A stretch of DNA of 64,000 nucleotides, from positions 737,707 through 801,706 of the forward strand of contig JACPAK010000001.1 in the NCBI GenBank assembly GCA_016180845.1, written 5' to 3'. The position numbers and the translations under genes are program-made. The notes beneath the pieces were generated by a model. It was not told the DNA's origin. It saw only the letters and a list, made by a program, of their open reading frames with translations, and ran no database searches. Every line of letters starts with the position of its first letter. The stretch's first letter is position 1. Shown here in pieces: positions 9,520 through 28,240 of this stretch. The stretch is from Deltaproteobacteria bacterium (GTDB lineage: Bacteria > UBA10199 > JACPAL01).

Positions 9520-10381
9520 TGGGGCTCTCCTTTAGGTAGGCTTGTAGGGCCTCTTTCCACGGTCTCAGGTTCGGGAGACCTAAGGAATTGAGGCGTTTGC
9601 TTTCCAGAACAGAATAGGGAGGTCGGACAGCCGGGCGACGATAGTCCTGATAGCTGATAGGCTGGACCTGCACCTCCATTTTTCTTTGGCGAAAGATCTC
9701 CTCGGCAAAATCCATCCAGGAGCATAAGCCACTATTGGTCAAATGGTAGAGGCCAAAGGCCTCTGTTTGAAGGAGAGGAAAGATACCTGTCGCAAGATCT
9801 TTCGTATACGTTGGATTGACAATTTGGTCTGTGACGACAGAAACTTTTCCTTCCCGTCCTTTTTTAAGGAAAAGTTCTACAATGTTTGTGCCTTTCACAC
9901 TGCTTTTTGAGAGACCATAGAGACCGGAAGAGCGGACAATAAAATGACGTGGGGCTATCATCTGGACAAAGTATTCACCCAACAGTTTTGACAAGCCGTA
10001 ATTGTTCAAGGGGTTTGGTAAATCCTCTTCTGTATAGGGAAGTCCTTTCTTGCCATCAAAGACATAGTCCGTGCTGATGGATACCAATACGGCATTCTGA
10101 TCTCGACAGGTCTCTGCCAGATTTTTGACTGCAAAGGCATTTACTTCAAACGCCTCGCGCCATTCTTCTTCACACTTATCGACATTCAAGAACGCAGCTG
10201 TGTTGATCACGAAATCCGGTTTGAGTTCACGGACAGCTTTCTGGACGGCGCTGTAATCCTTCAGCTCAAGATCGGCATGGGTCATTGGAATCATTTTAAA
10301 AGAGGCAGGTGCTACTTTTAAGAGATCTTGTCCCAGTTGACCGTTGGCACCGAGCAGGAGAATTTTCTTCTGGGCATTCAT
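9512..10381 (-). CDS. rmlD: dTDP-4-dehydrorhamnose reductase
   Basis: 289 residues. GANGQLGQDL near the N-terminus is the RmlD cofactor motif, STDYVFDG carries the catalytic Thr/Asp region, and the Tyr-Lys pair is in YGLSKLLGE. It completes dTDP-L-rhamnose with RmlA, RmlB and the RmlC-like protein, although it sits 6 kb upstream of those genes in the operon. It overlaps the flanking genes by 4 and 8 bases. The spread of the rml genes across the operon, with dideoxy-sugar genes between, fits both branches sharing dTDP-4-keto-6-deoxyglucose. Confidence 0.92.
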   Translation of the reverse strand: MNAQKKILLLGANGQLGQDLLKVAPASFKMIPMTHADLELKDYSAVQKAVRELKPDFVINTAAFLNVDKCEEEWREAFEVNAFAVKNLAETCRDQNAVLVSISTDYVFDGKKGLPYTEEDLPNPLNNYGLSKLLGEYFVQMIAPRHFIVRSSGLYGLSKSSVKGTNIVELFLKKGREGKVSVVTDQIVNPTYTKDLATGIFPLLQTEAFGLYHLTNSGLCSWMDFAEEIFRQRKMEVQVQPISYQDYRRPAVRPPYSVLESKRLNSLGLPNLRPWKEALQAYLKESPNE

Positions 10382-11940
10382 GATTTGTTGAGGGATTGAG
10401 ATAACCGATAAAGCGAGACTGAGAGAGGTTTTTTGTCAAAGTTGCCCAATGGCAACTCCATCATCAGTGAACAGTGAAATTGGGTCTGGCAGATCTTTTC
10501 GAAGACTTGTGATTCTAAACGGGGATTGCCCCATTTTTCCAAGAGAAGAAAATCAGGGTTCCACTGAGCAACAATGGTGGGGAGAGTATCCGTATGAAAG
10601 CTTCTTATGTAGGTCGATTTGATTTCAGGTTGTCGCAACAAGAGGAAAGCCGAATCAACAGTGAGTATGACAGGCCCGTTTGGGCTCTTTTCAGATTTTA
10701 CCGCTTCTGCAATGCGCGATGATGTCTCATGAAGACGACCTATTTCTTCCGCAAAGAGCCACCGTTGGTGTTTGAAGAGATCCGCGCTGATCATCAGGAG
10801 GAGAAGCAGTAACGCAAGGGTCCTAGGTGCCTTTTTTTGTTGTTGAGCAAGAAGAAGAGACAGAGACAGGGTAGCAAAATAAATGACAGGAAGGAGGAAT
10901 AATATAACTGATTGGACACCCACGCCCCCAACACAGTTAACCGTTCCCAAAAGAAATGGCATCAGGATGAACCAACTCCCCATCACAATGGAAAAGGGTA
11001 AAATCTGTTTCGAGGGGAAGGACGACCTACGCAAGAGGCGAACAAAATAGCCCCAGCCACAAAAAGCGGTTGCCCAGATGAGCAGTAGACCTCCGCCCTT
11101 AATGGCATAACGGGCATACGATTTGGGAAGTTCAATAGCCCATTTTAAAGAAGGATGGAAATAACCTTGAATGGCCGACTGGGCATCATAGGCAGAAATA
11201 TTCCACCAGACCCCTTTCGCGGGTGCCAGATATACAGCGTTGTAAATCTCATAAGGGATAATAAATCCTGCAGTAAAACTAATCAGGAGAGGGTTCCAGA
11301 GCACCCTGGGCCAGTTCAATTTGTAATGCCACCGGTGAGTTGCCAGACAGGCTAAAATGCCGATCGGGAAGAAAAAAAGAGAAGTTTCTTTCACGGTTCC
11401 AATGACGGCAACAAACAGGCCTGCCAACAAGCTCCAGAAGATGCTTTGTCGTTCCAGGGCATAAGATAAGGAGAGACAAAAAAGGGCTGCTGGCAGAAGG
11501 ACGACCGGATAAGGTGAAGCGAATTTTGACCACATGACAAACGGGTAATTGATGGCAGCCAAGAGGCCGAACAAAAGAATAAAAGTTGCAGAGGTCCTTT
11601 TCCAGAGAAAGGCGAGGAGAAGAAAGAAAGAAATCATGACCGCTGTGACCGAGGCAAGACGTGCCGAAAAAAGGTTGGGATCAAAAAGATTAAAAAATGC
11701 AGCAACCCACTGTTGGTACCCTCTAATGGTCCAGCCGAGATAATAGGTTCCGGGAAGCTGCCATTCTCCAAGGCGAACCTTGTGAAAGGCGCTTAACTGA
11801 TACCCACCCTCATCGAGGAGAAAGGCGCCTGTTGGGCCCAAATCATTATAAGGGAGATCGTCTGAGAGTCGGTAAATTCTGAGGCCGAAAGCCAACAAGA
11901 CGATGCCGGCCAAAACAATGATCTGTAGTTTTTTAGACAC
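10378..11940 (-). CDS. GT-C/PMT-like integral membrane glycosyltransferase
   Basis: 520 residues starting at GTG 11940. An N-terminal helix is followed by a large first external loop with acidic residues (LLDEGGYQLSAFHK), then about ten hydrophobic segments and a soluble C-terminal domain. This matches the topology of GT39/GT83-type enzymes that take sugars from polyprenyl phosphates on the periplasmic side. It follows a GT2 synthase (11962-12738) that may supply its donor. Family membership rests on topology and the acidic loop; no specific motif fixes the substrate. Confidence 0.65.
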   Translation of the reverse strand: MSKKLQIIVLAGIVLLAFGLRIYRLSDDLPYNDLGPTGAFLLDEGGYQLSAFHKVRLGEWQLPGTYYLGWTIRGYQQWVAAFFNLFDPNLFSARLASVTAVMISFFLLLAFLWKRTSATFILLFGLLAAINYPFVMWSKFASPYPVVLLPAALFCLSLSYALERQSIFWSLLAGLFVAVIGTVKETSLFFFPIGILACLATHRWHYKLNWPRVLWNPLLISFTAGFIIPYEIYNAVYLAPAKGVWWNISAYDAQSAIQGYFHPSLKWAIELPKSYARYAIKGGGLLLIWATAFCGWGYFVRLLRRSSFPSKQILPFSIVMGSWFILMPFLLGTVNCVGGVGVQSVILFLLPVIYFATLSLSLLLAQQQKKAPRTLALLLLLLMISADLFKHQRWLFAEEIGRLHETSSRIAEAVKSEKSPNGPVILTVDSAFLLLRQPEIKSTYIRSFHTDTLPTIVAQWNPDFLLLEKWGNPRLESQVFEKICQTQFHCSLMMELPLGNFDKKPLSVSLYRLSQSLNKS

Positions 11941-11961: not shown

Positions 11962-12738
11962 TTATTCGAAAAGAGAAAAGTGAAGCCAACCACGTTTATG
12001 GAGGAAATATTTCAGTGTGACCATCAATATGTTCAAACCATAGACAACGCTTCTCTTGAAGCTAACGGAAGAGGAATCCTTTGCATAGCGGGTGATGACC
12101 GGGATCTCATGGATCTTGAATCCCTTCATCATCAGTTGGGCAATGATCTCGTTATCAAAAATAAAGTCATCTGAATTGGCCTGAAAATTGATCGCCTCAA
12201 GGGCCTTCCGATGAAACGCACGGTACCCCGTGTGAAATTCCGAGTAATGGGTTCCGAAGACAAAATTCTGTATAGCGGTCAGGGATTTATTAAAAATAAA
12301 TTTATAGAGAGGCATTCCTCCCTTGAGAGGGTCACCCAACATACGGGAGGCGAACACGACCTTCGCCTTCCCTTCGGCAATAGGACGGACTAATTCCGGA
12401 ACAATAGCCGGATCATACTGGTAATCCGGATGAAGCATCACAATAATGTCCATCCCCTGTCTTAGGGCGTCGGTGTAACAAGTTTTCTGGTTTCCCCCGT
12501 AACCTTTATTTTTTTCATGAACAATTGTTCTGATCCCGAGAAGTTTGGCTATTTCAACGGTGTCATCGTAACTCGCATCGTCGACAAGAAGCATTTCATC
12601 AACAGATCCTGGTGGGATCGCACGATAGGTGCGAACGAGTGTGCTCGCGGCATTGTAAGCGGGCATGACGACGCAGACCTTTGACTTCTTTTGGGGAATC
12701 GGTTCAGGAAAAATTTGTTTTTTCAATGCCTCACTCAT
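11962..12738 (-). CDS. GT2 family glycosyltransferase, polyprenyl-phosphate-sugar-synthase-like
   Basis: 258 residues if started at ATG 12738, which overlaps the NeuB-like gene stop by 8 bases; a start 48 bases further upstream is open but less likely. Visible GT2 features are VVMPAYNA, LLVDDASYDDT and the HPDYQYDP metal-site region, with a basic amphipathic C-terminus lacking clear membrane helices. The HTGYRAFHRKALEAI stretch is typical of undecaprenyl-phosphate/dolichyl-phosphate sugar synthases. It is the second such enzyme of the operon and could serve a different GT-C partner from the one at 4314-5060. Confidence 0.82.
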   Translation of the reverse strand: MSEALKKQIFPEPIPQKKSKVCVVMPAYNAASTLVRTYRAIPPGSVDEMLLVDDASYDDTVEIAKLLGIRTIVHEKNKGYGGNQKTCYTDALRQGMDIIVMLHPDYQYDPAIVPELVRPIAEGKAKVVFASRMLGDPLKGGMPLYKFIFNKSLTAIQNFVFGTHYSEFHTGYRAFHRKALEAINFQANSDDFIFDNEIIAQLMMKGFKIHEIPVITRYAKDSSSVSFKRSVVYGLNILMVTLKYFLHKRGWLHFSLFE

Positions 12739-14272
12739 GGAGGGTTCCGTTCTCCTGATAGAAGTAATATCTCCCCCAGTTTTCAAGCTGTGTCTTCCTC
12801 TCCTCCCGTTTCATGGAGGCGATGGTTTTGTCCTCGTAAAAGGAGTCGTCGTTAAAGGCTGTCGTTGAGATTTCCTCAAAAATCACGCCTGTTCTTGTAC
12901 TGAAACTATGCCAAACACCGGCTTGAACAAGGTAGAGATCCCCTGGATATAGAGTTTTCTTAACCCCCTCCGCTTCGATCTCTAGCTCTCCCCAGAGGAC
13001 CTGAAAGGTTTCCTCTTTCCTTTTATGGAAATGATTCGGATGTGCCTGATGAGGAAGTTGAATAACCAATTTCTTGCAATAACTTCTATTGATCACAGTG
13101 ATCAGAATGGCTCCAAATTCTCGAAATCGCTCGACACCATAATGATGTGACATCTCAATGTAGAACTCACGCCCAATCGGTATCTTCGCCTCATTGAGCA
13201 TCCCCTTGATCTCATGAATCATTGAATAAATGATTTCCTTCCGTGTGGGCGTTTCACTAACAAGATGGGTTGCAAGGGGCTGGTTTTTTTCATAGTCGGC
13301 ATCTGCAATAATTCCCTCACGCCACACCTCACTCTTGAGCTGCTTTTCCTGCAAGGGCATGGCAAAGAAGACATCCTCTGCTTTGACCGATTGTCCTTTT
13401 CTTATCGGGGTCCGAGCATAGACCCCTCTCTTTAAGGTATTCAGGTCAGCTTCCTCTTCACGCGTGATCGGTCTTCGGGTACGTGCGCCACAGATTTCAA
13501 CAGCCTTGCGATAGGCCTCAAGCCATTTCCTTATCTGTTCGGGAGTTGCTGAGTAGGAATTGATCTTATGTTTATCCGTGGGAATCGCGACATGTTTTTC
13601 AAAAAGTCTAGCCCCTTTTGCATAAGCAACAACGACTGGAGTGGGATCATCTGGGGCTTCATGTGTCGAGAAACCGATAGGGACCCCAGAATATCTATTT
13701 TTCATTGTCTCGATCTGGTTCAGATAGAGGTCTTTATGGGGTGTTGGATAACTGCTGACACAGTGCATGAGAGCGAAGTTGACACCTCGATGGTTAAAAA
13801 AACTAACAAGCTTATCAATATCAGCGATTTCCAGACCGCCTGTGGAGCAGATTACTGGCTTTCCTGTTTGCGAAACTTTTTCAAGAAGTGGCCAGTCTTT
13901 TGCTGAACAACTTCCAATTTTGATGATCTCTATACCTTGTCTGACAATATGATCGACTGAGGTCTCGTCAAAGGGGGTACAGATCGTGACGAGTCCTCGT
14001 TTACGGACTTCATCGAAGAGGGTCTTGAATTGATCTTGAGAGAGCCGGGTCGAGAGGAAACGAGGAATATGCTTATTCGTGGAACCTGACTGGTGATCTG
14101 GATGAATGAAGGTATCCAGGTCACGAAACTGAAACTTAAAGGCCCCCCGAACATCGGCATGATAGGCCTCCTTTGCCACTTCATTGATGATCCTCAATCC
14201 ATGCTCAAGATCACCTTGGTGATTATTAGCCATTTCGAAGATGAAAAGGCCGTCGAAATTGTATTTGCTCAT
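12731..14272 (-). CDS. NeuB-family nonulosonate synthase fused to SAF and C-terminal cupin domains
   Basis: 513 residues in three parts. Residues 1-270 are a NeuB/SpsE TIM barrel (EMANNHQGD, HCVSSYPTP at about 170-178, FEKHVAI) that condenses a hexosamine with phosphoenolpyruvate. Residues 282-340 are an SAF/antifreeze-like lid (KRGVYARTPIRKGQ). Residues 370-480 form a cupin with metal ligands in HFHKRKEE (414-421) and H455. The usual NeuB is about 340 residues, so the cupin is an extra domain. GGAGG lies seven bases before the ATG. It probably makes a sialic-acid-like sugar that the NeuA fusion (28250-30091) activates. The cupin may isomerise a substrate or a downstream sugar. Confidence 0.88.
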   Translation of the reverse strand: MSKYNFDGLFIFEMANNHQGDLEHGLRIINEVAKEAYHADVRGAFKFQFRDLDTFIHPDHQSGSTNKHIPRFLSTRLSQDQFKTLFDEVRKRGLVTICTPFDETSVDHIVRQGIEIIKIGSCSAKDWPLLEKVSQTGKPVICSTGGLEIADIDKLVSFFNHRGVNFALMHCVSSYPTPHKDLYLNQIETMKNRYSGVPIGFSTHEAPDDPTPVVVAYAKGARLFEKHVAIPTDKHKINSYSATPEQIRKWLEAYRKAVEICGARTRRPITREEEADLNTLKRGVYARTPIRKGQSVKAEDVFFAMPLQEKQLKSEVWREGIIADADYEKNQPLATHLVSETPTRKEIIYSMIHEIKGMLNEAKIPIGREFYIEMSHHYGVERFREFGAILITVINRSYCKKLVIQLPHQAHPNHFHKRKEETFQVLWGELEIEAEGVKKTLYPGDLYLVQAGVWHSFSTRTGVIFEEISTTAFNDDSFYEDKTIASMKREERKTQLENWGRYYFYQENGTLHE

Positions 14273-16741: not shown

Positions 16742-18610
16742 TCACCTGTTAATTTTATAAAGGCTCACTGACTTATTTTTAAAAAGCTTCTCCCACCCTT
16801 TTTTAAATACACTCTCTTCGGTAACATATTCCCTCTCAAGATGAGTGAACATCACATAATCCGCGCGGAAGGTTCCCGGACTCGGTACTTGCGTTGTTTC
16901 TAAAAGCTGGCGCATGGCATCAGCTCCAATAAGAACATTGGGAGTGGTGTCATACACATGTGCTTTTTCCCAAAGGGACCGTGTTAATAGGTCCCGGCGG
17001 AATTTTTCTGCAACAAAGAATCTTTTATGAACTTCATTGTAAAGATCAAGGTTCATAAAGTGTTTCTCCAGAAAATACTCTCGATTGATTCCATAGAGAG
17101 AGAGCGCGTACATTAATCTTCGGGTATTTTCTTGAATAGAAATATCAGAGAGAATGGCACTGGCATGAGCGATAAGAGTTTTGTTGTGGGTGAAAAGAGG
17201 GATATCGATGATCATTTCAGAGCTCAGAGTGACCACAACCGAATCCTCTTCTGTATGATCGTTCAGAAAATCAAAGGCCTCTTCGTAATCCCTTGGCAAT
17301 GCCGAGAAGGTGTAGCGATCCTTTGCCAGCATGATGCCACGGCTTAACATCAGAACAGCTAAAATAACGATGGAGTAACGAAAAGCGGCATAGCATGACT
17401 GCATTGATATTCGTTTGAGAAGCCAACGATACACGACAATCAATAGGAGCATAACAAGAAAGACATTTCCGAAGATTTGCCAATGTGAGAGAGAAAATTC
17501 GTAACCGGTAATTAATTGTATGTTGCTAAAGGGAAAGGCAGAGCCAATGATGGCGGCTATCCATAGAACTGTGGGATCGTCGATCTTTCTGTTTCGGAAG
17601 ACCACAATAAGATAAACAGCGAGAAATAGAAAGGAGGGCAAGAAAAAATATCTCCCCGGTTCGTGCTCTGCGATTCGAGCAATTCTGATGATGTCAGGAT
17701 CGGAATCTGAATGAAAGAAGAAGGAACCGCGCATGAGAATGACTGGAATGGCAAGGAGGAGAGTGATCGCATAAGAGAGGATAACTGAACGTTGAATTTT
17801 TCTTGTTCTTATCCATTGCCCGAAAGAGTAAAGGGGTACGGCAGCAAGATAATGTCCTAATTCGATCCAGTGAGTGATGGCAAGTAATCCGCCAAGGAAT
17901 CCCGATGCTAGTGCGAGTCGGTTCCCGCATTTTTGCTTGCTGATGACTTTCAAGAAGAGATAAATCGCCAAAAAGAACATGGCCCTTGTAAACACATAGA
18001 GGGTTTTGTCTGGACCCACACTGTCTGAGATATTGGGGAAAACAGGAAAAAGATAGTTCAGGGTTCGGAGAGCCATCTTCAGGGGTGACTGGAAAAAGAG
18101 ATCGTAGTCAAAATAATACCAAATGATAAAAAGATTCACCCAGAAGCTGGAGAAAAGACTAAAAAGTTCATCTGAGGTCGCCTGCATCATAATTTTGTAG
18201 ATCAAGATGGTTGAGATAAACATAAGGAGAAAAGTGTAAACGATGACCGTCAGATCGAGGTTGTTGAGGCATTTGTTTAAAAACCCAAGAACTGTAAATG
18301 GCAGGGCATCGGAAAGGGTGTTACCAAAATTTTTCATGTTTTCAAAAATGAAAGGATCATAGGGGAGACCATGCTCGGAGACCTCTTTGATTTTTGCCAA
18401 ATAAGGCAAGGCGCCAGTAAAATGATCAAAAGGTGCAATGTTGGTTGGACGACCATTATTTGACCAGACGTCTACGGCGCTGGGATCGTGGCTTAAATGA
18501 TAGGAGCGAAGACAGGGGGCAAGGATATTGGGGAGGATCACCAGCGCTCCCACAAGAGCGGCCATATAGAAGATTTTTCTTTTCAAGAAGTATGGGAATC
18601 GATTGCTCAT
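16742..18610 (-). CDS. Large polytopic membrane protein, possible GT-C glycosyltransferase
   Basis: 622 residues with about a dozen hydrophobic segments and a soluble C-terminal region of roughly 190 residues. I do not recognise a diagnostic family motif. The first external loop (DPSAVDVWSNNGRPTN onward) is long and polar, as in GT-C enzymes, and the C-terminal part ends in a tyrosine-rich soluble domain resembling those of YfhO-like or dolichyl-mannosyltransferase-like proteins. It starts by a TAATG overlap with the SDR upstream and lies 9 bases before hldE. A lipid-sugar-dependent glycosyltransferase is likely; an O-antigen polymerase is the main alternative. Confidence 0.5.
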   Translation of the reverse strand: MSNRFPYFLKRKIFYMAALVGALVILPNILAPCLRSYHLSHDPSAVDVWSNNGRPTNIAPFDHFTGALPYLAKIKEVSEHGLPYDPFIFENMKNFGNTLSDALPFTVLGFLNKCLNNLDLTVIVYTFLLMFISTILIYKIMMQATSDELFSLFSSFWVNLFIIWYYFDYDLFFQSPLKMALRTLNYLFPVFPNISDSVGPDKTLYVFTRAMFFLAIYLFLKVISKQKCGNRLALASGFLGGLLAITHWIELGHYLAAVPLYSFGQWIRTRKIQRSVILSYAITLLLAIPVILMRGSFFFHSDSDPDIIRIARIAEHEPGRYFFLPSFLFLAVYLIVVFRNRKIDDPTVLWIAAIIGSAFPFSNIQLITGYEFSLSHWQIFGNVFLVMLLLIVVYRWLLKRISMQSCYAAFRYSIVILAVLMLSRGIMLAKDRYTFSALPRDYEEAFDFLNDHTEEDSVVVTLSSEMIIDIPLFTHNKTLIAHASAILSDISIQENTRRLMYALSLYGINREYFLEKHFMNLDLYNEVHKRFFVAEKFRRDLLTRSLWEKAHVYDTTPNVLIGADAMRQLLETTQVPSPGTFRADYVMFTHLEREYVTEESVFKKGWEKLFKNKSVSLYKINR

Positions 18611-19467
18611 TAAGTGAAAGCTCTAAATTGAGTCCCAGCAGGATGAAGGGAAGTAAAGTCAGGGTTTGAAAGTGTAGAGGTCAAACTCACAACATTATCG
18701 CTCTTTAAACGAAGTCGAAGACCTATTTTTTCGAGGGTCTTGAGCAGTAGCCAAGGGATCCAGGCGGGGCAAGGGATCGTTGCCACCTTTTTCTGGCGCC
18801 TATTCGCAAGGATCTCAAACATTTGCTGAAACGTCTTCCCGCTAGGATGGGCTGCAATAATTGGTTTCACAGGTCTTGGAATACGCCCTTCGGCAATTTC
18901 TAAAACCAGGTGTGCCAGGTCTTCTACATGGCAAAAGAAAAGAGGTTGATCCCCCTTTCCAATAAGGGGGATCAATGGCAATGAATGGACAATTTTATCC
19001 ATAATCCCGACAATCCCCTTGGGGCTTTCATCATAAATCATGCCGGGGCGTATGCTGATCACTCCTAAAGGGGCCGATTTTTTCTCCACTTCAAGCTTTC
19101 CCTGTCCATAAAGTGATAGGCAACCGGGGAAGGCACTCATGGAGGATATGAAAACAATTTTGGGAACACCGGCCTGTGAAGCCTCGTTGAAGAGCTTGAT
19201 AGAGCCCCCTACATTAGACTTAAAAATTTCTTCCTTTGTTACTGCCGAAAAGTCGTAGGCGCAATGTATCAGGGTATCGATCTCTCTCAGGAAATCAGGG
19301 GAGACCGTCTCTCCGAGGTGATAAGGGTACACCTCTTTCTCATTGGGCGACAGGTTTCGGCCAAGTTTTATGACTCGGTGTCCCTTGTCTCTTAAAAATT
19401 TAACGAGAAAGGTCCCTAGATAACCGTTGGCCCCAGTGATAGCAAAAGATTGCCTGGTGGTGGTCAT
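18610..19467 (-). CDS. NAD-dependent epimerase/dehydratase family protein
   Basis: 285 residues, an extended SDR. GANGYLG near residue 13 is the dinucleotide motif, an FISSMSAFPG strand follows, and YGQGKLEVE gives the Tyr-Lys pair. The C-terminal substrate domain is short. It opens the tailoring block at 18.6-27.0 kb in genome order and overlaps the membrane-protein gene downstream by one base. Substrate unknown: it may act on a nucleotide sugar or on a lipid-linked or steroid-like alcohol, since SDRs of this type do both. An almost perfect inverted repeat lies inside it at 18946-18975. Confidence 0.75.
   Translation of the reverse strand: MTTTRQSFAITGANGYLGTFLVKFLRDKGHRVIKLGRNLSPNEKEVYPYHLGETVSPDFLREIDTLIHCAYDFSAVTKEEIFKSNVGGSIKLFNEASQAGVPKIVFISSMSAFPGCLSLYGQGKLEVEKKSAPLGVISIRPGMIYDESPKGIVGIMDKIVHSLPLIPLIGKGDQPLFFCHVEDLAHLVLEIAEGRIPRPVKPIIAAHPSGKTFQQMFEILANRRQKKVATIPCPAWIPWLLLKTLEKIGLRLRLKSDNVVSLTSTLSNPDFTSLHPAGTQFRAFT
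18946..18975. repeat. Intragenic inverted repeat, 12-bp perfect arms
   Basis: Arms TTGATCCCCCTT (18946-18957) and AAGGGGGATCAA (18964-18975) are perfect complements around a 6-base loop. It lies in the SDR gene and is translated without breaking the frame (the IGKGDQPLF region). The protein there looks like a normal SDR loop, so it is less clearly an insertion than the palindromes at 42-55 kb. Confidence 0.6.
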
Positions 19468-19503
19468 TTGATTTAAGTTGTTTAGAGAGTCTAGTTTAGA
19501 TTG

Positions 19504-20946
19504 TTACACATGCCGCAAGGATGTGATCGATATTTGCTGCCGATGATATTTCATTGTCAAGAAGTCCCACGCCACCCTGATATTGTTGGGCAGTTTTTTG
19601 TAAAAATCCCACTCCTTCATCTGGCGTAGCACGTATTTTGGTGAAAAATAAAAGCTTCTGTAAGCCTTTGCTGCCCAATCCCCAGCGTTTGGGTAGACAA
19701 AAGGAAGTGGCTCCAGAGTTTTCCCGAGCACGAAGTTTCTCCAATAATCCTTTGGCACTAAGCCACGGGCCTCGCTTTCGTATAAGAGCGCCGTATTCGG
19801 CATAGGTGTTGCCGGGAAAAAGGCCGCATAACTCAGCTTCAATGCCTTTGCAAATCGGATGGTCTCCTGTATCGTTTCAGGTGTTTCATCTAAATACCCG
19901 ACAATGAAATAGCCAACCGTCTTGATCCCATATTGCCTGCAAAGCTTTACCGCCCTTCTTGTCGCCTCCAGATTAATATGCTTGTCAATTTTCTCCAAAA
20001 TCCTTGGGGAGCCTGATTCAAGACCAAATCGGAACGTATGACAACCCGCCTTTTTTGCCGCCTTCACAATTTCTTCATCAATGCTTGTGACCCGGGTTGG
20101 CGATTGCCACTTTAAATCCCAATTTTTTGCGGCAAGTTTCTCGCAGAACTCGAGGAACCATTTTTTCTTGATCGAGATTGTCTCATCCACAAAATTAATT
20201 GATTTGATTCCATATTTTTCAACAAGCAGACCGATCTCTTCCAGGGCTCGATCGACACTCTTGAACCGGACCTGGAGCAGTTGTGGATTTCTGTAGCAAA
20301 ACCCACATTTATAGGGGCAGCCACGTGACAGATACAACGAGATGAGGCGTTTGTCTGAATTAGGCATTTGATAAAAATCCAAATCCAAAAGGTCATAAGC
20401 TGGCAGAGGGAGAACATCCAAATTTTCGTTCATTGCCTCGTCAGAATTTGCAATAATCTCATCTCCTTTTCTCCAGACGAAGCCGGGTATTTCAGCCTCA
20501 TTTAAAGAATCGAGATTGTCTAGAAATTGAACTAATGGCCCTTCTCCTTCGCCGGAGAAGGCGTAATCGAATTCAGAATATTCCAATGTCTCTTTTGGGA
20601 AAATGGTTAAATGGGTTCCACCACAAATAATTTTTGCATTGGGGACCGCCTTCCGGGCTAATTTTGCTGAATGATGCGCACCATGAAAATTAGGGGTCAT
20701 AATGCTGATCCCAATGACATCCGGATTATGTTCCTTTAAGAATTTTTGATATCCTGCCTCAGTTGAATCTGATCGTTCACAATCGTAGATGAGGACCTCA
20801 TGACCCGCTTCTCGTACCGCTCCAGACAAGCAAACGATGTTCAGCGGAGGAACTAAGCCAATGTTTGACTCAAAACTCTCTGACGATTGGCTATTGACAT
20901 ACTCACGAATGAAGGGTCGAACCAGAACTATCTTACGTTTTGTCAT
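19504..20946 (-). CDS. B12-binding-domain radical SAM protein (BchE/class B type)
   Basis: 480 residues. The N-terminal 150 residues form a cobalamin-binding-like domain (IICGGTH near 107). The radical SAM motif CPYKCGFC (C210, C214, C217; CX3CX2C) follows, then FVDETISIKK and GLESGSPRILEKI. Such proteins catalyse radical methylations, cyclisations or rearrangements. A second protein of the same class is encoded at 23037-24695. AGGA precedes the ATG. Between SDR, flavoprotein and phosphodiesterase genes it probably modifies a lipid or sugar of the envelope polymer, but no substrate can be named. Confidence 0.9.
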   Translation of the reverse strand: MTKRKIVLVRPFIREYVNSQSSESFESNIGLVPPLNIVCLSGAVREAGHEVLIYDCERSDSTEAGYQKFLKEHNPDVIGISIMTPNFHGAHHSAKLARKAVPNAKIICGGTHLTIFPKETLEYSEFDYAFSGEGEGPLVQFLDNLDSLNEAEIPGFVWRKGDEIIANSDEAMNENLDVLPLPAYDLLDLDFYQMPNSDKRLISLYLSRGCPYKCGFCYRNPQLLQVRFKSVDRALEEIGLLVEKYGIKSINFVDETISIKKKWFLEFCEKLAAKNWDLKWQSPTRVTSIDEEIVKAAKKAGCHTFRFGLESGSPRILEKIDKHINLEATRRAVKLCRQYGIKTVGYFIVGYLDETPETIQETIRFAKALKLSYAAFFPATPMPNTALLYESEARGLVPKDYWRNFVLGKTLEPLPFVYPNAGDWAAKAYRSFYFSPKYVLRQMKEWDFYKKLPNNIRVAWDFLTMKYHRQQISITSLRHV

Positions 20947-20999
20947 AAAAATTTATTCCTCAATCTATCATCAGGCCGAAAAGAATCAAGCAGAATGTC

Positions 21000-21407
21000 T
21001 CATGACCTCCAAAACTGCCACCATGCCTTTTTATCTGACATCAGGCCTCCCCAGTCCGTAGTGCCGTCTTTGCCATAAATTTCACATTCATTGCCTTGAA
21101 CTTTAGCCTTGAGGGCCTCGGCGATTCGAAACATCTTTTTTAATATCTCCTGGTCCGGCTTGAAGACCGTGATGTTTCCGCTGAGATATTTAAAGATCAC
21201 CGGCTCATCGCTATTTGAAGAGTTTGGATGTGCGATCCAGGTGGCACGCCCATCACCCTTAAAAAGGGCCGCGGGCAGTTTTTTATCCTGATCGATCAAT
21301 TGCATTTCCGGATCCTTTTCCAGATATTCCACCCATTCCTGTAAGGAAATGTTATTGGTCTTGTCGAACCAATCATCTTTTCTTGTAATATGAACATCAA
21401 ATCCCAC
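21000..21407 (-). CDS. Small soluble protein of unknown function
   Basis: 135 residues starting at GTG 21407, supported by a strong GGGAGGT five bases upstream. The start MGFDVHITR and a following polar SLQEWVEYLEKDPEM helix are seen in scattered hypothetical proteins I have met in other bacteria, but I know of no assigned function. The C-terminus is rich in Trp (KKAWWQFWRS). It is soluble, acidic in the middle and has no signal peptide. It stands between a B12-radical-SAM gene and the GMC-like flavoprotein, with 27- and 53-base gaps. It could be a late arrival or an immunity-like protein. Confidence 0.7.
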   Translation of the reverse strand: MGFDVHITRKDDWFDKTNNISLQEWVEYLEKDPEMQLIDQDKKLPAALFKGDGRATWIAHPNSSNSDEPVIFKYLSGNITVFKPDQEILKKMFRIAEALKAKVQGNECEIYGKDGTTDWGGLMSDKKAWWQFWRS

Positions 21408-21434
21408 AGCTTACCTCCCTTGGTTTCCTCATGT

Positions 21435-23018
21435 TTAATTCGGAGACTCCATGCCGATACGATAAGCATTTGCCATTGTGGTGAGTGTCATTGTCGTACC
21501 AGGAATCGATGGAAAGATGGATGAGTCGACGGCATGTACCCTCGAGTATCCCTTCAAGCGTCCCAAGCGATCTGTTTCAAATGTCCTTTGCGGCTTCTCC
21601 CTCATGGGGAAGGTTCCCCCAATATGGTTGCTTGCCCCCGGGGCAAAAATTTGAGTCTTTGGAATCACGGGGACCCCTCCAAGCAGTTTCCATTGTCGGA
21701 GGAGAAATTTTGAGATCCGCCGAATTGTTATTTTTACCTCTTCGTTTACATTTTTTTTAAGGGACAATTGATCGAGACCTTCATCCCCCTTTTCAAGACT
21801 CACATCGATGGTAGAAGAAAAGTCTGAATGAAGATAGCCCTGTACGAGATAAACGCGCCCCATGAACCGTCGTATTGGTTTTTCAAAGAGTGAATAGAAA
21901 CGACCTAACATCGACTGAAATGCCTTGGGATAGGCGTTATTATAGGAATAAAACTGCAAATGCACAGTTCGGGAGCAGATCTCCTTGTTAACAACCTCCA
22001 TAAAAATCTGCGAAAGGGTGTGGAGCCTTTCTTGTTCAACATCCTTTTGCCCCTTTAAAGAGATAAATGGGAAAAGAAAGTACTGACTATCCAGCATCTT
22101 GAAGGTTCTGCCGTAGGCATTCATCGACTTGAGCAGGATCTTCGTTGTTGAAATCGGACCAGCAGCCAAAAAAAGGCGCTCACCCTTGAATTCAAGCTTT
22201 TCTCCTTGTGTTGAATGAGCTTCAATCAGCACTGAGTTCTCACTTTCCGAGACGCGTTCGACGATGACTCCTGGGGTGTAAGTCAGCCGCTTGTCCTGCA
22301 ATAAATCCTGGAGACTGTGACGGCTCGTATAGATCAGTTCATTGGGACAACCATAAAGGCACATGCCGCAAAATTCGCAGGGGAGGCCTCTTTTTTTATT
22401 GAGATCGACGGCTAATCGGGAGGAGCCGAAGATGAACCCTTTTTTCAGGAGTTCATCACGTTTTGAGGACAGTTGTCGGTGAAGATGCTCACCCTGTCGG
22501 CTTCGACGAAAGGCTTGGGCCTGTGTGGTATGTAATGGGAACTGGGACTCCAGATGATCATGCTCACCTGTTGTCGGGACAAACTGAAGAACAGATTCAT
22601 AGTGAGGGGCCATTTCCTTTGATTTAATAGGCCATTTGTCGTCAATATCATTGGAGCAGTAAGGGAGCATGTTGGCGCCCCAGACATTGCTGAAACCTCC
22701 TTGCGCAAAAGAAACGTGGGTTTGGACACCCACTTCGTCACGGGGGCAGTATTTTTCATGGTCGCGGTAGGGAAAATCCGAACCGTAAACCAGTTTTTTT
22801 TCGAATCCTTTCTGACTGATTGATGATTTCGCTTGAAAAGCCTTGAGTGTATCCCAATTCCATTCTTCAAAAGGTCTCTTTTGGTTGCTGTTAAGGAACT
22901 CTTGTATGGAGGTCTCTAGTGTATTTCCTGCATCCAAAAGGGTGACCGCTTTGCCACGACTCAATAAGGATTTTGTGCAAGCTATTCCAGCAGGTCCTGA
23001 GCCGATTACGTAATTCAT
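21435..23018 (-). CDS. GMC-like FAD oxidoreductase with an internal [4Fe-4S] ferredoxin motif
   Basis: 527 residues. GSGPAG at 6-11 and VTLLDAG form the FAD-binding Rossmann fold. A C-terminal segment with HIGGTFPM and VDSSIFPSIPGTTMTLT matches the GMC oxidoreductase C-domain (choline/cholesterol oxidase type). Inserted at 214-224 is CEFCGMCLYGCP, a CX2CX2CX3CP cluster-binding motif, so electrons may pass to a carrier rather than to oxygen. It probably oxidises or reduces an alcohol or sugar hydroxyl. It lies between the unknown 135-residue protein and the second B12-radical-SAM protein in the tailoring block. Confidence 0.82.
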   Translation of the reverse strand: MNYVIGSGPAGIACTKSLLSRGKAVTLLDAGNTLETSIQEFLNSNQKRPFEEWNWDTLKAFQAKSSISQKGFEKKLVYGSDFPYRDHEKYCPRDEVGVQTHVSFAQGGFSNVWGANMLPYCSNDIDDKWPIKSKEMAPHYESVLQFVPTTGEHDHLESQFPLHTTQAQAFRRSRQGEHLHRQLSSKRDELLKKGFIFGSSRLAVDLNKKRGLPCEFCGMCLYGCPNELIYTSRHSLQDLLQDKRLTYTPGVIVERVSESENSVLIEAHSTQGEKLEFKGERLFLAAGPISTTKILLKSMNAYGRTFKMLDSQYFLFPFISLKGQKDVEQERLHTLSQIFMEVVNKEICSRTVHLQFYSYNNAYPKAFQSMLGRFYSLFEKPIRRFMGRVYLVQGYLHSDFSSTIDVSLEKGDEGLDQLSLKKNVNEEVKITIRRISKFLLRQWKLLGGVPVIPKTQIFAPGASNHIGGTFPMREKPQRTFETDRLGRLKGYSRVHAVDSSIFPSIPGTTMTLTTMANAYRIGMESPN

Positions 23019-23036
23019 GGGAATGATGATGAGTTA

Positions 23037-24695
23037 CTATTCGCCGATCTGACTGAGGCCGATTTGGAGCGACGGCAATTGGGTCAAGCCCCCAACGCCT
23101 TGTTCACTGGTAGTCACCTTGCCTTTGATTCTGAAAGGCGCTAGCCAATCAATCTGGAAATGGATGAGCCGCTTCCAGGCATCCTTGAGAACCGATCGAA
23201 CAGCCATCTTGGCGTAATGGTCATTTTTAATGTAGGAAACCACCACGTCAATTGCTGCAATGATCAAGGTCTGCATCGGGACATATTTAAAGACCCTCTG
23301 AAACTTGTGTTTGAGGATAAACTCAAGCAACCGGTAGGGCATCACGGGAGCAAGTCGGAAAAGAATGTGATACATCTTCAGAAAGTGAATCCTTTCACTC
23401 TCCAACACGGAGCCGGTTGACATGTAATGATCTTGAAGACCTCGATTAATAGCACTGAGATCTATCGATTGATTAATAAAGCCCTTTTCAAGGGCATGTT
23501 TCGTAATTCCAGCTCCTGGAAGATACTGGAGCCAGAAAACAGAGGCCCGTCGAAGCTTCTTTGCCTTTGTGACCATCCGGAGGGCCCTAACGATATCCTC
23601 CTCAGTCTCTCCTGGGAGTCCCAGGATAAAGTCGCACGAATACTCGAGCCCGACCTCATCCATGTTGGCGACCGACTGGTAAACATGTTCATTGGTCTCA
23701 TCCCGATCAAGCAACTTTCGGACATCCGAATTCATTGTCTCAACACCCATCTGAACGTGCCAGCAATGCGCGTCTTTTAATAGTTGGCAGTATTCTTTAT
23801 CGGCCATCTGCAGGGGATGACCCATGATGCGAAATGGAACAGCAACTTCATCCTTGTATCGGGTCAAAAATTCTCTCCGCCATGTTTTTGAACCTGAGAG
23901 GATATTGTTTTTGATATCAGCAATCTTGATATCATATCTCGCTTTCATCTTTTTGAATTCAGAAAGGACTGTTTCAACCGGCTTTTCTCTCAAGAATTTC
24001 CCTAATTTATTGTCGGTGTTTTCATGGTCCCAGAGGAAGCTTTCTCCGCAAAAGGTGCATTTTTGAATGCAACCCTTTAGGGTGACCGTGAGGTAATAGT
24101 TTTTGATGTCGATAAAAGACTCAAAGATTTCTTTGTCAGGCTCGGGCCATGTATTGGGATCTGCATTTGGTAAGAGGCTATTTTTGACAGCTTGGCCATA
24201 CCGTTTGTAGTAGATATTCCCAACGGGGTATTCTTCATCTTGATACCAGCCAGGCACCCCTTGTTTTTCTTCCTTCTTCTTCTCAAGAATTTTGAGAAGT
24301 TGCACAAGAGCGACTTCTCCTTCTCCGACGCAAACAAAGTCGAATGGCCCTTCCTCTAAACAGGTATCCGGTGCACTCGTGGGATGATAACCACCAATGA
24401 TGACCGGGATGTCGAGGGCCTTCTTAACCTCTCGCGCAATGCTTGCATTCCATTGATAGTTATCCGTAAAGCAGGAGAGGGCTAAAACGTCAGGTTGTTT
24501 TTGAATAATATTTCGGATCACCCTTTTTTTGTCTGAAAACATCTTGGCCAGGAAATTTACGGAGAAATACTGTTTGTCATTGAAAAGGGCACGATCGAAT
24601 TCCAGCATCACTGTATGACCCTGTTGTTTGAGGACTGTTGAGAGATACTCGATCGAGACATTCTCGGCCCCCATCGCTATAAACATGACTTTCAT
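23037..24695 (-). CDS. B12-binding-domain radical SAM protein
   Basis: 552 residues. A cobalamin-binding-like N-terminal domain (IIGGYHPTS near 100, VGEGE near 123) precedes the radical SAM cluster motif CIQKCTFC (C209, C213, C216). The C-terminal 150 residues are basic and partly hydrophobic, so it may sit at the membrane. It is distinct in sequence from the paralogue at 19504-20946. The pair, one on each side of an Fe-S flavoprotein, suggests two successive radical steps on one substrate; that is inference. Confidence 0.9.
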   Translation of the reverse strand: MKVMFIAMGAENVSIEYLSTVLKQQGHTVMLEFDRALFNDKQYFSVNFLAKMFSDKKRVIRNIIQKQPDVLALSCFTDNYQWNASIAREVKKALDIPVIIGGYHPTSAPDTCLEEGPFDFVCVGEGEVALVQLLKILEKKKEEKQGVPGWYQDEEYPVGNIYYKRYGQAVKNSLLPNADPNTWPEPDKEIFESFIDIKNYYLTVTLKGCIQKCTFCGESFLWDHENTDNKLGKFLREKPVETVLSEFKKMKARYDIKIADIKNNILSGSKTWRREFLTRYKDEVAVPFRIMGHPLQMADKEYCQLLKDAHCWHVQMGVETMNSDVRKLLDRDETNEHVYQSVANMDEVGLEYSCDFILGLPGETEEDIVRALRMVTKAKKLRRASVFWLQYLPGAGITKHALEKGFINQSIDLSAINRGLQDHYMSTGSVLESERIHFLKMYHILFRLAPVMPYRLLEFILKHKFQRVFKYVPMQTLIIAAIDVVVSYIKNDHYAKMAVRSVLKDAWKRLIHFQIDWLAPFRIKGKVTTSEQGVGGLTQLPSLQIGLSQIGE

Positions 24696-24707
24696 ATTAT
24701 TCTCCTC

Positions 24708-27047
24708 TTAGACACTTCTTACTACATAAGAGAGCAGGTTGCCAGACTTAAATAGGGAATGGAACAGTCTCTCAAGTATTTTTTGAACAACAGGAAACTT
24801 CTTTAAGTTCTTTCTGTGGAAAAACGATGTGTAACTTTTCAACTCAAGCACCTCGAAATCTTTATAAAACTCATTTTCTAGCACATTAGAGTCGAAGCCG
24901 ATTTCCCTGTCAACACCATATTGAGATTGTTCTATCGGACTATGAAATTCGGCAATCTGAAAGATTTCTTCTTTTGAATAATGAAGCTTTTGCCCATATA
25001 AATTTGATAGATAGTGATTCATTGTCTCCAATTTTTGATCGTCGAACGTCTTCCCCCCTCCCAGGCGCTTAAAAAGGCTTGCCAGGAGGGCAGCGATTCT
25101 GTTCCTAAAAAAACGTTTGTTTGGTTCATGCGCCCCGATGAAAATCCCACCTGGTTTTAGTAGCTTTTTCAATCGCTCAAGAATTGTCTTGGGATCGTAA
25201 AAATGATGAAGAACACTATTGATGGCGATAATATCAAAATACTTTTCGTTTTTCTCAATGGTTTCGAAGCTGGATTCAAACCTAAAATAGCCTTTTTTAA
25301 GGTATGATTTCGCTGTTTCAAGAATTTCCTTATTAGAATCGTAAACCACGAAATCCTGAACACGATCCTGGAGCTGATGCAGCCCCTGGAATGTCTGCCC
25401 GACAAATCCTGCTCCCGCACCGAAATCGAGGATATTGATTTTTTTGTCTTTTAGGGGACCCGAGAGGAGCCGATGAAACTGGTGACTCCACCATTGGCCA
25501 TCGCCTTCATAGATCTCCGGGTGTTCCTCGATGTAGTCGTTTGAGAAGGCGGAATAAAAAGCATTGTTCATATCGGCGACCCATTTTGTCTTTTCTGCCT
25601 CGGCATCGATATTCGCAAAGGCCTCGAGGAAGACCCGACCTCGAGCCTTATTGGGATAAGGGATCCCCAAAAGGTAAGCAATATTACACGGGATATCCAT
25701 AATGCTGTAGCGTTCTTCATACACGTATCCCTTTTTGAGATGTTTGCCCCATAGGATACAGGGGACATATTTTTCCCCCGGCCGAATTTTGTAAGAGTGG
25801 TCGATCTCGCTCGTGCCATGATCCGAGGTGACAATCAATGCGGTGTCCTCTGCCAGATTGTTTAATTTGAGCCACTCCACAAACTCACCAATTCGCCGGT
25901 CGATTCGGATAATAGCGTTTTTGTAGTCCTCTGAAGTCGATCCATAGGCATGTCCGAGAAAGTCGGCCTCACTGAAATCGGTGACAAATAATCGTGTTTT
26001 TGAATCTCGTAAGAGATCTTCTTTAAGAAGCTTCATCATCTCATCGTCAGAATGATAAATTGAATGGGTTGGTAGCGAGATAACCTTTACCTCCCATTCC
26101 TTTTTGGCAAAGTGCTTCATGTGCATCGAACCATAAATCTTCGTGGGGGTAATGTCTGGAAGCCCTTCGACGCGGATCTCCTGTCCGAAATTGTTGTCTC
26201 GAATCCCATGAACCTCGGGGGGACAACCGGTCATCAAGCTGGCAAAGCCGGGGTTTGTCAAGGCACGATAGATTGTCTCCAGACCGTTTTTGAAACGAGC
26301 CCCTTCCGAGGCAAGTTTTTCCAGATTCGGGAGTTTTAGGGTCCGAAAGACATCATAACGACATCCATCAATAGCAAGAAGGATAACCCGTTTGTATTGA
26401 GCTCCGTGGTGAGGAACCCTGAAGTTTTTTGAGTATTTGTTTCGGGGACGGACAGCGTAAGTCAAAAGGCCGGCGAGGAGGATCAGGCCCCAGAGGGCGA
26501 GGTTTATTGTTGGTGATTTGGGAATTTGAGATACGTAGAGGAGGAGAGTCAAATGAAGAGAAAAATAAACGCTGATCAAAAATGAGACTGTTGTTGGCGC
26601 AATAGTGATTAATGACCACAGGAATTTCTTCGGGATGATGCCCAAATTTCGCCCCACGATGGAGTCAGGAACTCCCATAAAAATCGCCTGAATGAGAGCA
26701 AAAATAATGATATTTGGGATAAGAGATTGAAGGGCGATACTTCCTCCAGCGTAAGAAATGAGAAGAATGAAAGCTGGGAGATTAAACAAGATGAAAGTAG
26801 GGTAGAAGTCGGCAATTCTAAGAATGATGAAAAAGGCGATCAAGGAGACGAACATCGTCAAGAGGGCAATCGGGTTCAAGTAAACATCCGTTAATTTCAA
26901 GTACCAAACAAGAAACGTCAGAGAGGCGAGTCCGGAAAAGATGAAGAACGAGTTTAAGGTATTGAAGAAGTAAAGGAGGCGTGTACAGGCATCCTCCACT
27001 TTTTCGTTATAGAATAAGCGGACTAATTTGAGAATTATTGTTGTCAT
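24708..27047 (-). CDS. Membrane protein fused to a type I phosphodiesterase/alkaline phosphatase domain and a SAM methyltransferase domain
   Basis: 779 residues in three parts. Residues 30-205 hold about six membrane helices. Residues 217-475 are an alkaline-phosphatase-superfamily domain with metal and catalytic residues in LLAIDGCRYD (D227), RALTNPGF (T264 as nucleophile), DFSEADFLGH (about 357-366) and VTSDHG with H417. Residues 535-690 are a class I methyltransferase with motif I ILDFGAGAGFVG (539-550). Domains on both faces of a membrane, or all on one face, are hard to reconcile, since phosphodiesterases of this kind are often periplasmic and SAM is cytoplasmic. It overlaps the GT9 gene stop by 4 bases. 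Confidence 0.82.
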   Translation of the reverse strand: MTTIILKLVRLFYNEKVEDACTRLLYFFNTLNSFFIFSGLASLTFLVWYLKLTDVYLNPIALLTMFVSLIAFFIILRIADFYPTFILFNLPAFILLISYAGGSIALQSLIPNIIIFALIQAIFMGVPDSIVGRNLGIIPKKFLWSLITIAPTTVSFLISVYFSLHLTLLLYVSQIPKSPTINLALWGLILLAGLLTYAVRPRNKYSKNFRVPHHGAQYKRVILLAIDGCRYDVFRTLKLPNLEKLASEGARFKNGLETIYRALTNPGFASLMTGCPPEVHGIRDNNFGQEIRVEGLPDITPTKIYGSMHMKHFAKKEWEVKVISLPTHSIYHSDDEMMKLLKEDLLRDSKTRLFVTDFSEADFLGHAYGSTSEDYKNAIIRIDRRIGEFVEWLKLNNLAEDTALIVTSDHGTSEIDHSYKIRPGEKYVPCILWGKHLKKGYVYEERYSIMDIPCNIAYLLGIPYPNKARGRVFLEAFANIDAEAEKTKWVADMNNAFYSAFSNDYIEEHPEIYEGDGQWWSHQFHRLLSGPLKDKKINILDFGAGAGFVGQTFQGLHQLQDRVQDFVVYDSNKEILETAKSYLKKGYFRFESSFETIEKNEKYFDIIAINSVLHHFYDPKTILERLKKLLKPGGIFIGAHEPNKRFFRNRIAALLASLFKRLGGGKTFDDQKLETMNHYLSNLYGQKLHYSKEEIFQIAEFHSPIEQSQYGVDREIGFDSNVLENEFYKDFEVLELKSYTSFFHRKNLKKFPVVQKILERLFHSLFKSGNLLSYVVRSV

Positions 27048-28240
27048 CTCACGGCTGTCTGGAATGTTGTTGAAGCCTCGTTCGGTTGTCTAAGCATTTC
27101 ATAAACTTTGGTCAGGACAGCTTGAGGGGGGATCTGCTTCAGGCACTGATTGTCTCTGCAGGTCGTTATTTTATTATAAAGGATATTCATGCAAGGGCTG
27201 CAATAGATTCCTTTATAAAAACTAAAATGCTTTTCTCCGGAGTGACCATAAAGTTCGGGTGTCTCAGGGCCAAAAAGGCCCACCGTTTTTGTTCCCAGAG
27301 CGGCTGCCCAATGAAGCGGTCCTGAATCATTGGTGACAAGCAAATCAGCGATACTGAGGAGAGCAAAAGTTTCGTTGAGAGAAAGCTTGCCAGAGAGATT
27401 CTCAACGTTGACTCCTTCAATTCCACTCAAAATATCCTCCCCCGTGTCAAAATCTTCCTTACCGCCGATAAGAAGAACTTTTCGATCTGGTTTTGTCAGG
27501 AGATGTTGAATGACATATTTAAAATATTCACCAGGCCATTTTCGTAAGTCTGAAAGCTCAGAGGCGTTCGGATTCACCAGGACAATTTCATTGAAGTTGT
27601 CTGCAAGCGATTCGGCTTTTTTAAGGTCATTCGTGTTAAATTTGAGCTGGCTATAATCATCAAGAGGAAATTTTGGTGCGCCTAGATAAATTGCGTAGTT
27701 GGCGAATATCTCTGTAATGTGTCTTCGGTAATTAAAGTAGACGGGGATCGTCGTATAGAGTCTTCTCATCAATTGTTTTTCAACAAAGGCCATTCGAAGC
27801 TTGGCCAGAGAGAGAATGATGATGATCAATGGAAAGTTGCAGTAAAATTCAAGATCCATGAAGATATCTGGTTTGTGAAACGAGAAGAAAAACCGAAAAA
27901 CATCCCGTGTGAATTTGAAAAAGTTGCTTCGGTCAAAAGTGATAATTCGATCAACCTCGCTTATGTTTTGGCAGAAGGACCGATTTTGATCAAAGGTGAC
28001 AAAGGTAATTCTCGCATTTTTGAAATGAGATTTAAGGCCTCTGATCATCGGTGTTGCGAGGAGGATACTTCCCATTCCAAAATATTTGGAGATAAAGATG
28101 TTTCGCACCTCCAGAGGTTTTGTCACCGGATTGCTATTTCTACGGCCGACAAGACATTGTATCAGATGAAGGGGAAGCAGAAGTGTAAGAACAATAGTTC
28201 CAAAATAGTGATCAATCTTGCTCATGAGGCCAAATTTCAT
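27044..28240 (-). CDS. Glycosyltransferase family 9 (heptosyltransferase-like)
   Basis: 398 residues. The N-terminal IFISKYFGMGSILLATP and the C-terminal NDSGPLHWAAALGTKTVGLFGP motif with the following TPELYGHSG are hallmarks of ADP-heptose:LPS heptosyltransferases. A Cys-rich tail (CSPCMN...CRDNQC) is common in this family. A short hydrophobic segment near residue 20 may anchor it. With GmhA, HldE and HldD in the same operon, heptose transfer to an LPS core is the simplest role; transfer of another NDP sugar remains possible. Confidence 0.88.
   Translation of the reverse strand: MKFGLMSKIDHYFGTIVLTLLLPLHLIQCLVGRRNSNPVTKPLEVRNIFISKYFGMGSILLATPMIRGLKSHFKNARITFVTFDQNRSFCQNISEVDRIITFDRSNFFKFTRDVFRFFFSFHKPDIFMDLEFYCNFPLIIIILSLAKLRMAFVEKQLMRRLYTTIPVYFNYRRHITEIFANYAIYLGAPKFPLDDYSQLKFNTNDLKKAESLADNFNEIVLVNPNASELSDLRKWPGEYFKYVIQHLLTKPDRKVLLIGGKEDFDTGEDILSGIEGVNVENLSGKLSLNETFALLSIADLLVTNDSGPLHWAAALGTKTVGLFGPETPELYGHSGEKHFSFYKGIYCSPCMNILYNKITTCRDNQCLKQIPPQAVLTKVYEMLRQPNEASTTFQTAVR

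Follow-up and report, generated by a model that had tools for sequence, protein, structure and literature searches.

We analyzed a 64,000-nucleotide stretch (hereafter, the window) of the 2.1-Mb genome of a Deltaproteobacteria bacterium (assembly GCA_016180845.1, contig JACPAK010000001.1, positions 737,707 to 801,706), focusing on a block of six genes within a polysaccharide operon. A preliminary description of the sequence had presented these genes as a tightly linked tailoring set, free of glycosyltransferases (GTs), inside that operon, and both the linkage and the domain content were confirmed. All six open reading frames (ORFs) are present on the minus strand where that description placed them, in one operon and with gaps of 12 to 53 bases. 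The genes and two motifs within them are as follows.

18610..19467, minus strand: SDR285, an atypical/extended short-chain dehydrogenase/reductase (SDR; PF01370), of the same family as SDRs adjacent or fused to GMC genes elsewhere
19504..20946, minus strand: rSAM480, a B12-binding radical S-adenosylmethionine (SAM) enzyme (PF02310 and PF04055)
20296..20319, minus strand: CxxxCxxC motif of rSAM480 (CPYKCGFC, residue 210; motif match)
21000..21407, minus strand: U135, a protein of 135 residues with no Pfam or NCBIfam match
21435..23018, minus strand: GMC527, a divergent Fe-S GMC-family flavoprotein and the core of the module (Pfam GMC_oxred_C, 4.7e-6)
22347..22379, minus strand: iron-sulfur motif of GMC527, C214-x2-C217-x2-C220-x3-C224 (residues 214-224; from cysteine conservation and the alignment with FAD-GDH)
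23037..24695, minus strand: rSAM552, a second B12-binding radical-SAM protein (PF02310 and PF04055; CIQKCTFC at residue 209)
24708..27047, minus strand: PDE-MT, 779 residues, with six transmembrane segments (residues 1-200), a type I phosphodiesterase domain (about 217-480), and a methyltransferase domain (about 525-700), from domain matches and hydropathy

The block is an excised part of a longer operon. Both of its ends overlap neighboring genes: GT9 overlaps the upstream end by 4 bases, and MEM622, which is followed by HldE, overlaps the downstream end by 1 base. The conserved unit is GMC527 plus SDR285 rather than the six-gene block, and this pair is the new content of the analysis.

The GMC-SDR pair in other genomes

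We compared the window with loci that encode relatives of GMC527: 48 from named genomes, 2 from plasmids, 3 from genomes of the window's class, and 4 from a wider genome sample. A genome scan with the single GMC protein gave no matches; a scan with a three-sequence alignment recovered the loci. We matched neighboring ORFs against the window proteins and against a profile built from GMC-adjacent SDRs, and SDRs scoring >150 bits were assigned to the SDR285 family; other SDRs at the same loci reach at most 103 bits. The window SDR, used as a lone query, also gave a nearby match at 35 loci. All loci were selected by the presence of GMC, and the frequency of the SDR285 family is thus seen at GMC loci only.

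Our first tally covered 52 loci, after one without a usable GMC ORF was dropped. An SDR285-family protein was encoded at 37 of them: adjacent to GMC at 33, fused to it at 2 (L031 and L033), and at position +2 at 2. One of the +2 cases is L046, from Nitrospirae, in which a radical-SAM gene stands between GMC and SDR; the other is L068, in which GMC is split into two ORFs. At all 37 loci the SDR gene lies on the GMC strand, in many cases with a 4-base overlap. Adjacency at this frequency, together with two fusions, is not chance. The GMC loci span Acidobacteria, Verrucomicrobia, Planctomycetota, Omnitrophota, Nitrospirae, Proteobacteria, and Dormibacterota. The GMC-SDR module is conserved, and it is apparently uncharacterized: in the open-access literature, we found no paper on the pair when searching for GMC with polyprenyl, epimerase, DprE1, or exopolysaccharide.

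The six genes could nevertheless have come together largely by chance, as is typical in polysaccharide islands, which change fast. The whole block was not found elsewhere, and GMC itself is rare and sporadic (8 of 385 genomes in the wider sample) and absent from a genome of the same family; U135 and PDE-MT are unlinked to GMC. These observations are set against the GMC-SDR adjacency and fusions described above and the GMC-rSAM-SDR gene order, which recurs in L046. On balance, we consider a chance collection improbable. The preliminary description had suggested that the six families serve one pathway and had named their co-occurrence in other genomes as the check. Co-occurrence is strong for GMC and SDR and is seen for B12-radical-SAM genes at a minority of GMC loci, whereas U135, the PDE-MT architecture, and a close relative of rSAM552 occur at no other GMC locus; the closest relative of rSAM552 is encoded in a genome without this GMC. 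This distribution does not support a single six-gene pathway.

Predicted properties of GMC527 and SDR285

The domain search of GMC527 returned only GMC and generic FAD/NAD-binding families. Its AlphaFold2 model (pLDDT 93.9) gave Burkholderia cepacia FAD-GDH, Gluconobacter fructose dehydrogenase, and pyranose oxidases as best Foldseek matches, and the GMC profile matches the aminoglycoside oxidase 7dve, with 6'''-hydroxyparomomycin C oxidase among the nearest solved relatives. The active-site residue His465 is invariant in 40 of 40 GMC relatives. The cysteines C214, C220, and C224 are kept in 39 of the 40 and C217 in 33, which bears out the earlier assignment of the protein to an Fe-S type. C214, C220, and C224 align with the cysteine loop of FAD-GDH, whose 3Fe-4S cluster is bound by Cys212, Cys218, and Cys222 (PMC6719666); C217, as a fourth cysteine, may permit a 4Fe-4S cluster.

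In fold, catalytic histidine, and three Fe-S cysteines, GMC527 is like the Fe-S GMC sugar dehydrogenases (FAD-GDH, 6a2u; fructose dehydrogenase, 7w2j), and its sequence and predicted structure make it a probable sugar dehydrogenase. Unlike those enzymes, it has a fourth cysteine, shared by most members, an SDR partner, and no export signal. The protein begins directly at the FAD motif (MNYVIGSGPAG) without a signal peptide, and for this reason it is probably cytosolic. In addition, the window has no adjacent gene for a hitchhiker (gamma) subunit or a multihaem cytochrome c; the neighbors of GMC527 are instead the radical-SAM proteins, U135, the SDR, and a GT. The partner protein SDR285 keeps the TGxxGxxG and YxxxK motifs in the alignment, and its nearest solved relatives are sugar and sterol SDRs and the complex I subunit NDUFA9.

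A possible split redox epimerase

We propose that GMC527 and SDR285 are the two-enzyme core of the block and act as a split redox epimerase for sugars, a proposal for which we see the balance as even. GMC527 would use FAD and its Fe-S cluster to convert one secondary hydroxyl group on a glycosyl intermediate into a ketone, with the electrons leaving through the cluster to an acceptor. SDR285 would then use NAD(P)H to re-reduce this ketone, and reduction from the opposite face, the most likely course, would yield the epimer. Because the oxidation and the reduction would use different cofactors, the inversion would be driven one way, as in DprE1/DprE2. The radical-SAM enzyme rSAM480 would probably act on the same sugar, by C-methylation or by radical chemistry adjacent to the ketone; GT9 or a GT-C enzyme would then use the product. 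PDE-MT, rSAM552, and U135 would be lineage-specific additions, with PDE-MT working at the cytosolic face. The substrates may be polyprenyl-phosphate sugars at other loci and a free sugar in the Alphaproteobacteria; for the window, an intermediate that contains a heptose or a hexose is a possibility.

A close functional comparison is DprE1/DprE2, the decaprenylphosphoryl-ribose 2'-epimerase of Mycobacterium, which likewise consists of a flavoprotein and an SDR encoded by separate genes in a cell-envelope glycan context. DprE1 is a VAO/FAD_binding_4-type flavoprotein, whereas GMC527 has the GMC fold and an Fe-S motif and no FAD_binding_4 or ALO domains. Because the flavoprotein family differs, the GMC-SDR pair is no member of the DprE1/DprE2 family, but it may work by analogy with it. 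The mycobacterial enzymes carry out an oxidation followed by a stereo-inverting reduction, which is a precedent for a split epimerase (PMC5964476).

Genes that stand near GMC at other loci bear on the carbonyl step. At seven loci (L048, L053, L054, L058, L061, L062, and L125, the last in G372), a DegT-type aminotransferase adjoins GMC in place of the SDR, an arrangement to be expected of a carbonyl-supplying GMC. In four Alphaproteobacteria (L047, L049, L050, and L068; Pfam was run on L050 as the representative), GMC and SDR lie in an operon between a PfkB kinase and an MFS transporter (kinase-GMC-SDR-MFS), as expected for a free-sugar converter. Both arrangements are compatible with a GMC that forms a carbonyl and with a second step that can be exchanged. 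Membrane GT2s that recur near GMC match the AglJ, dolichyl-phosphate hexose transferase, and PpgS models (19 of 19 members; the member shown is below cutoff) and the DPMS, ArnC, and GtrB structures, all polyprenyl-phosphate-sugar synthases. No AglJ/DPM-like membrane GT2 lies beside GMC527; the GT2 of the window operon is a family-level relative of these enzymes without the transmembrane anchor. The single DegT gene of that operon (5065-6408) is about 15 kb from GMC527.

Several observations weigh against the split epimerase. Fifteen of the 52 GMC loci have no SDR of the SDR285 family, and in the window two genes stand between GMC and SDR. No electron-acceptor gene was found alongside GMC. The AlphaFold2 model of a natural GMC-SDR fusion consists of two good domains joined by a flexible linker (pTM 0.69) and gives no support for channeling. 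Finally, an SDR beside a sugar oxidase could be a dehydratase, or a reductase for another compound.

We also considered heptose as the specific substrate. Suggestive genes are present at some loci (GmhA, HldE, HldD, and GT9 in the window; GmhA with a GHMP kinase and HAD in Rhizobium; HldE and GT9 in a planctomycete), but most loci are without them, and we rejected this candidate. A separate observation is that a gene for an asparagine-synthase-like amidotransferase of about 627 residues lies upstream of GMC, at a distance of two or three genes, in L046, L056, and L065, which suggests amidated sugars at those loci.

Taken at its broadest, the split-epimerase reading would make GMC-SDR a hitherto unrecognized, horizontally spread epimerase for sugars linked to polyprenyl phosphate. 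It would have evolved from sugar dehydrogenases as an Fe-S-flavoenzyme counterpart of DprE1/DprE2, and B12-radical-SAM enzymes would have joined it independently at least three times for branched or otherwise rare surface sugars. In this extended form, we regard the reading as speculative and rather unlikely. If the pair is a split redox epimerase at all, it would be a second answer to the DprE1/DprE2 problem, unrelated to the first and present in at least seven phyla. Proteins now annotated only as "GMC oxidoreductase" and "NAD-dependent epimerase" would gain a function, and there would be a handle on the unusual surface sugars of uncultured bacteria. The natural fusions and the compact four-gene operon should be easy to express and assay, and the alphaproteobacterial operon lends itself well to experiments on the pair.

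Radical-SAM proteins and the remaining genes

Both rSAM480 and rSAM552 have a B12-binding domain, a radical SAM domain, and a CxxxCxxC motif, as is characteristic of class B (B12) radical SAM enzymes. The nearest NCBIfam models of rSAM480 are BchE and HpnJ, class B enzymes whose domain architecture it shares, but its scores fall far below the curated equivalog cutoffs (160 versus 577 bits and 205 versus 481 bits). A hopanoid link, raised by matches to HpnA and HpnJ, was rejected given such scores; squalene-hopene cyclase was not searched for.

A B12-radical-SAM gene lies near GMC at about 5 of the 57 other loci (L046, L055, L065, L074, and G252). The proteins of the first four (L046 6834-8420, L055 2285-3136, L065 11548-13110, and L074 13367-14965), from Nitrospirae, Gammaproteobacteria, and Alphaproteobacteria, form one ortholog group that is 58-66% identical, and the gene in G252 belongs to another lineage. 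As rSAM480 is only 27-30% identical to the radical-SAM proteins at other GMC loci (28% to that of L046, and 27-29% to the L046, L065, and L074 proteins), we rejected it as an ortholog of the group, although the window and L046 share their gene order. The B12-radical-SAM genes beside GMC thus come from at least three lineages and look like a recurrent add-on, that is, a real but optional link. The best relative of rSAM552 (32% identity) is in G026, within another cluster of SDR, GT2, and multiple radical-SAM genes. In this genome, which is of the window's class, locus L133 (G026:C9:25500-45400) carries GT2 and SDR genes next to four B12-radical-SAM-like ones.

The preliminary description knew of no pathway with this gene set, which is too strong a statement. 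In gentamicin biosynthesis, the radical-SAM enzyme GenK methylates and the flavin dehydrogenase GenQ oxidizes C-6' of the same sugar, which GenB1 then aminates (PMC4039129). Because gentamicin combines these two enzyme types, the gene set is unusual rather than unprecedented. GenQ/NeoQ with GenK tailor one sugar, as proposed here, and have a pyridoxal phosphate enzyme as partner, as do the seven related loci with an aminotransferase; the window GMC, by comparison, is partnered by an SDR and not by a dedicated aminotransferase, lies in a surface glycan operon, and has low sequence similarity to them. By a gentamicin-like route, rSAM480, rSAM552, or both would C-methylate a sugar carbon, GMC would oxidize the adjacent hydroxyl, and SDR would reduce the ketone, yielding a branched or chain-extended sugar; this corresponds to the C-methylated sugar of the preliminary description. 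The shared carbon of GenK and GenQ, the profile match to 7dve, and the radical-SAM genes near GMC or GMC-SDR, which in L046 and the window lie between the two, are consistent with this route. However, about nine-tenths of the GMC loci are without a nearby B12-radical-SAM gene, so methylation is not the core function, and rSAM480 matches no curated methylase at cutoff; another reaction is possible, as HpnJ, BchE, and AprD4 also score. We therefore view this route as possible but doubtful.

Relatives of U135 that are 27-36% identical occur in Variovorax, Escherichia coli, Pantoea, Paraburkholderia, and Paenibacillus plasmids, and the protein is absent from all other GMC loci compared. We rejected this member of a scattered, uncharacterized family as a pathway component, and it probably lies outside the pathway. 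At L085 and L086, in genomes G014 and G027, weakly U135-like ORFs adjoin RHS-repeat proteins, a context that might point to an immunity-type or some other unrelated function of the family.

The phosphodiesterase domain of PDE-MT (PF01663, 7e-33) retains its metal and nucleophile motifs (DGCR, TNPG, DFLGH, and SDHG), and the SAM motif DFGAG is present. The six hydropathy peaks and the positive-inside rule indicate an N-in/C-in topology, by which both catalytic domains are expected on the cytosolic side of the membrane, the side with SAM. PDE-MT shares N-terminal transmembrane segments and an alkaline-phosphatase-superfamily domain with EptA, LtaS, and type I phosphodiesterases. It differs in matching PF01663 best rather than PF00884, in its predicted cytosolic placement, and in its fused methyltransferase. 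Searches for PDE-MT gave only partial relatives, of the phosphodiesterase or of the methyltransferase domain. A role of the block in modifying a lipid carrier, polyprenyl or other, and in attaching or trimming a phosphodiester would agree with the membrane anchor and intact motifs of PDE-MT and with the recurrence of polyprenyl-phosphate-sugar synthases near GMC elsewhere. Yet the closest GMC relatives are sugar oxidases, PDE-MT is not found with GMC elsewhere, and its phosphodiesterase domain is placed in the cytosol, unlike those of EptA/LtaS-type phosphodiester transferases. We consider this pathway highly improbable; for the phosphodiester step, the domain name was the only support.

Four GT or membrane protein genes of the surrounding operon are as follows.

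27044..28240, minus strand: GT9, heptosyltransferase-like; GT9 genes also directly precede GMC in L024, L038, and L069
16742..18610, minus strand: MEM622, a multi-transmembrane protein of 622 residues (seven hydropathy peaks; no Pfam match)
11962..12786, minus strand: GT2 (profile A3, E 3.3e-39; no transmembrane peak)
10378..11940, minus strand: PMT_2, a GT-C-type membrane glycosyltransferase (PF13231 at cutoff; eight transmembrane peaks)

Neither the membrane proteins at other GMC loci nor plasmid proteins showed significant similarity to MEM622, which is possibly a GT-C-type glycosyltransferase. The operon also encodes a UDP-GlcNAc 2-epimerase (wecB model passed), HldD (TIGR02197 passed), HldE, RmlD (passed), and a GmhA-like isomerase that scores slightly below the model cutoff; Wza/Wzz/Wzi-like genes adjoin it. 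Two of its genes encode unusual fusions: a NeuB-like synthase with a cupin domain (12731-14272) and a PseF-like cytidylyltransferase with a GFO/IDH/MocA-type oxidoreductase (28250-30106). A NusG-like gene of the RfaH/LoaP type (34090-34569) stands at the head of the operon and probably encodes an antiterminator for the long transcript.

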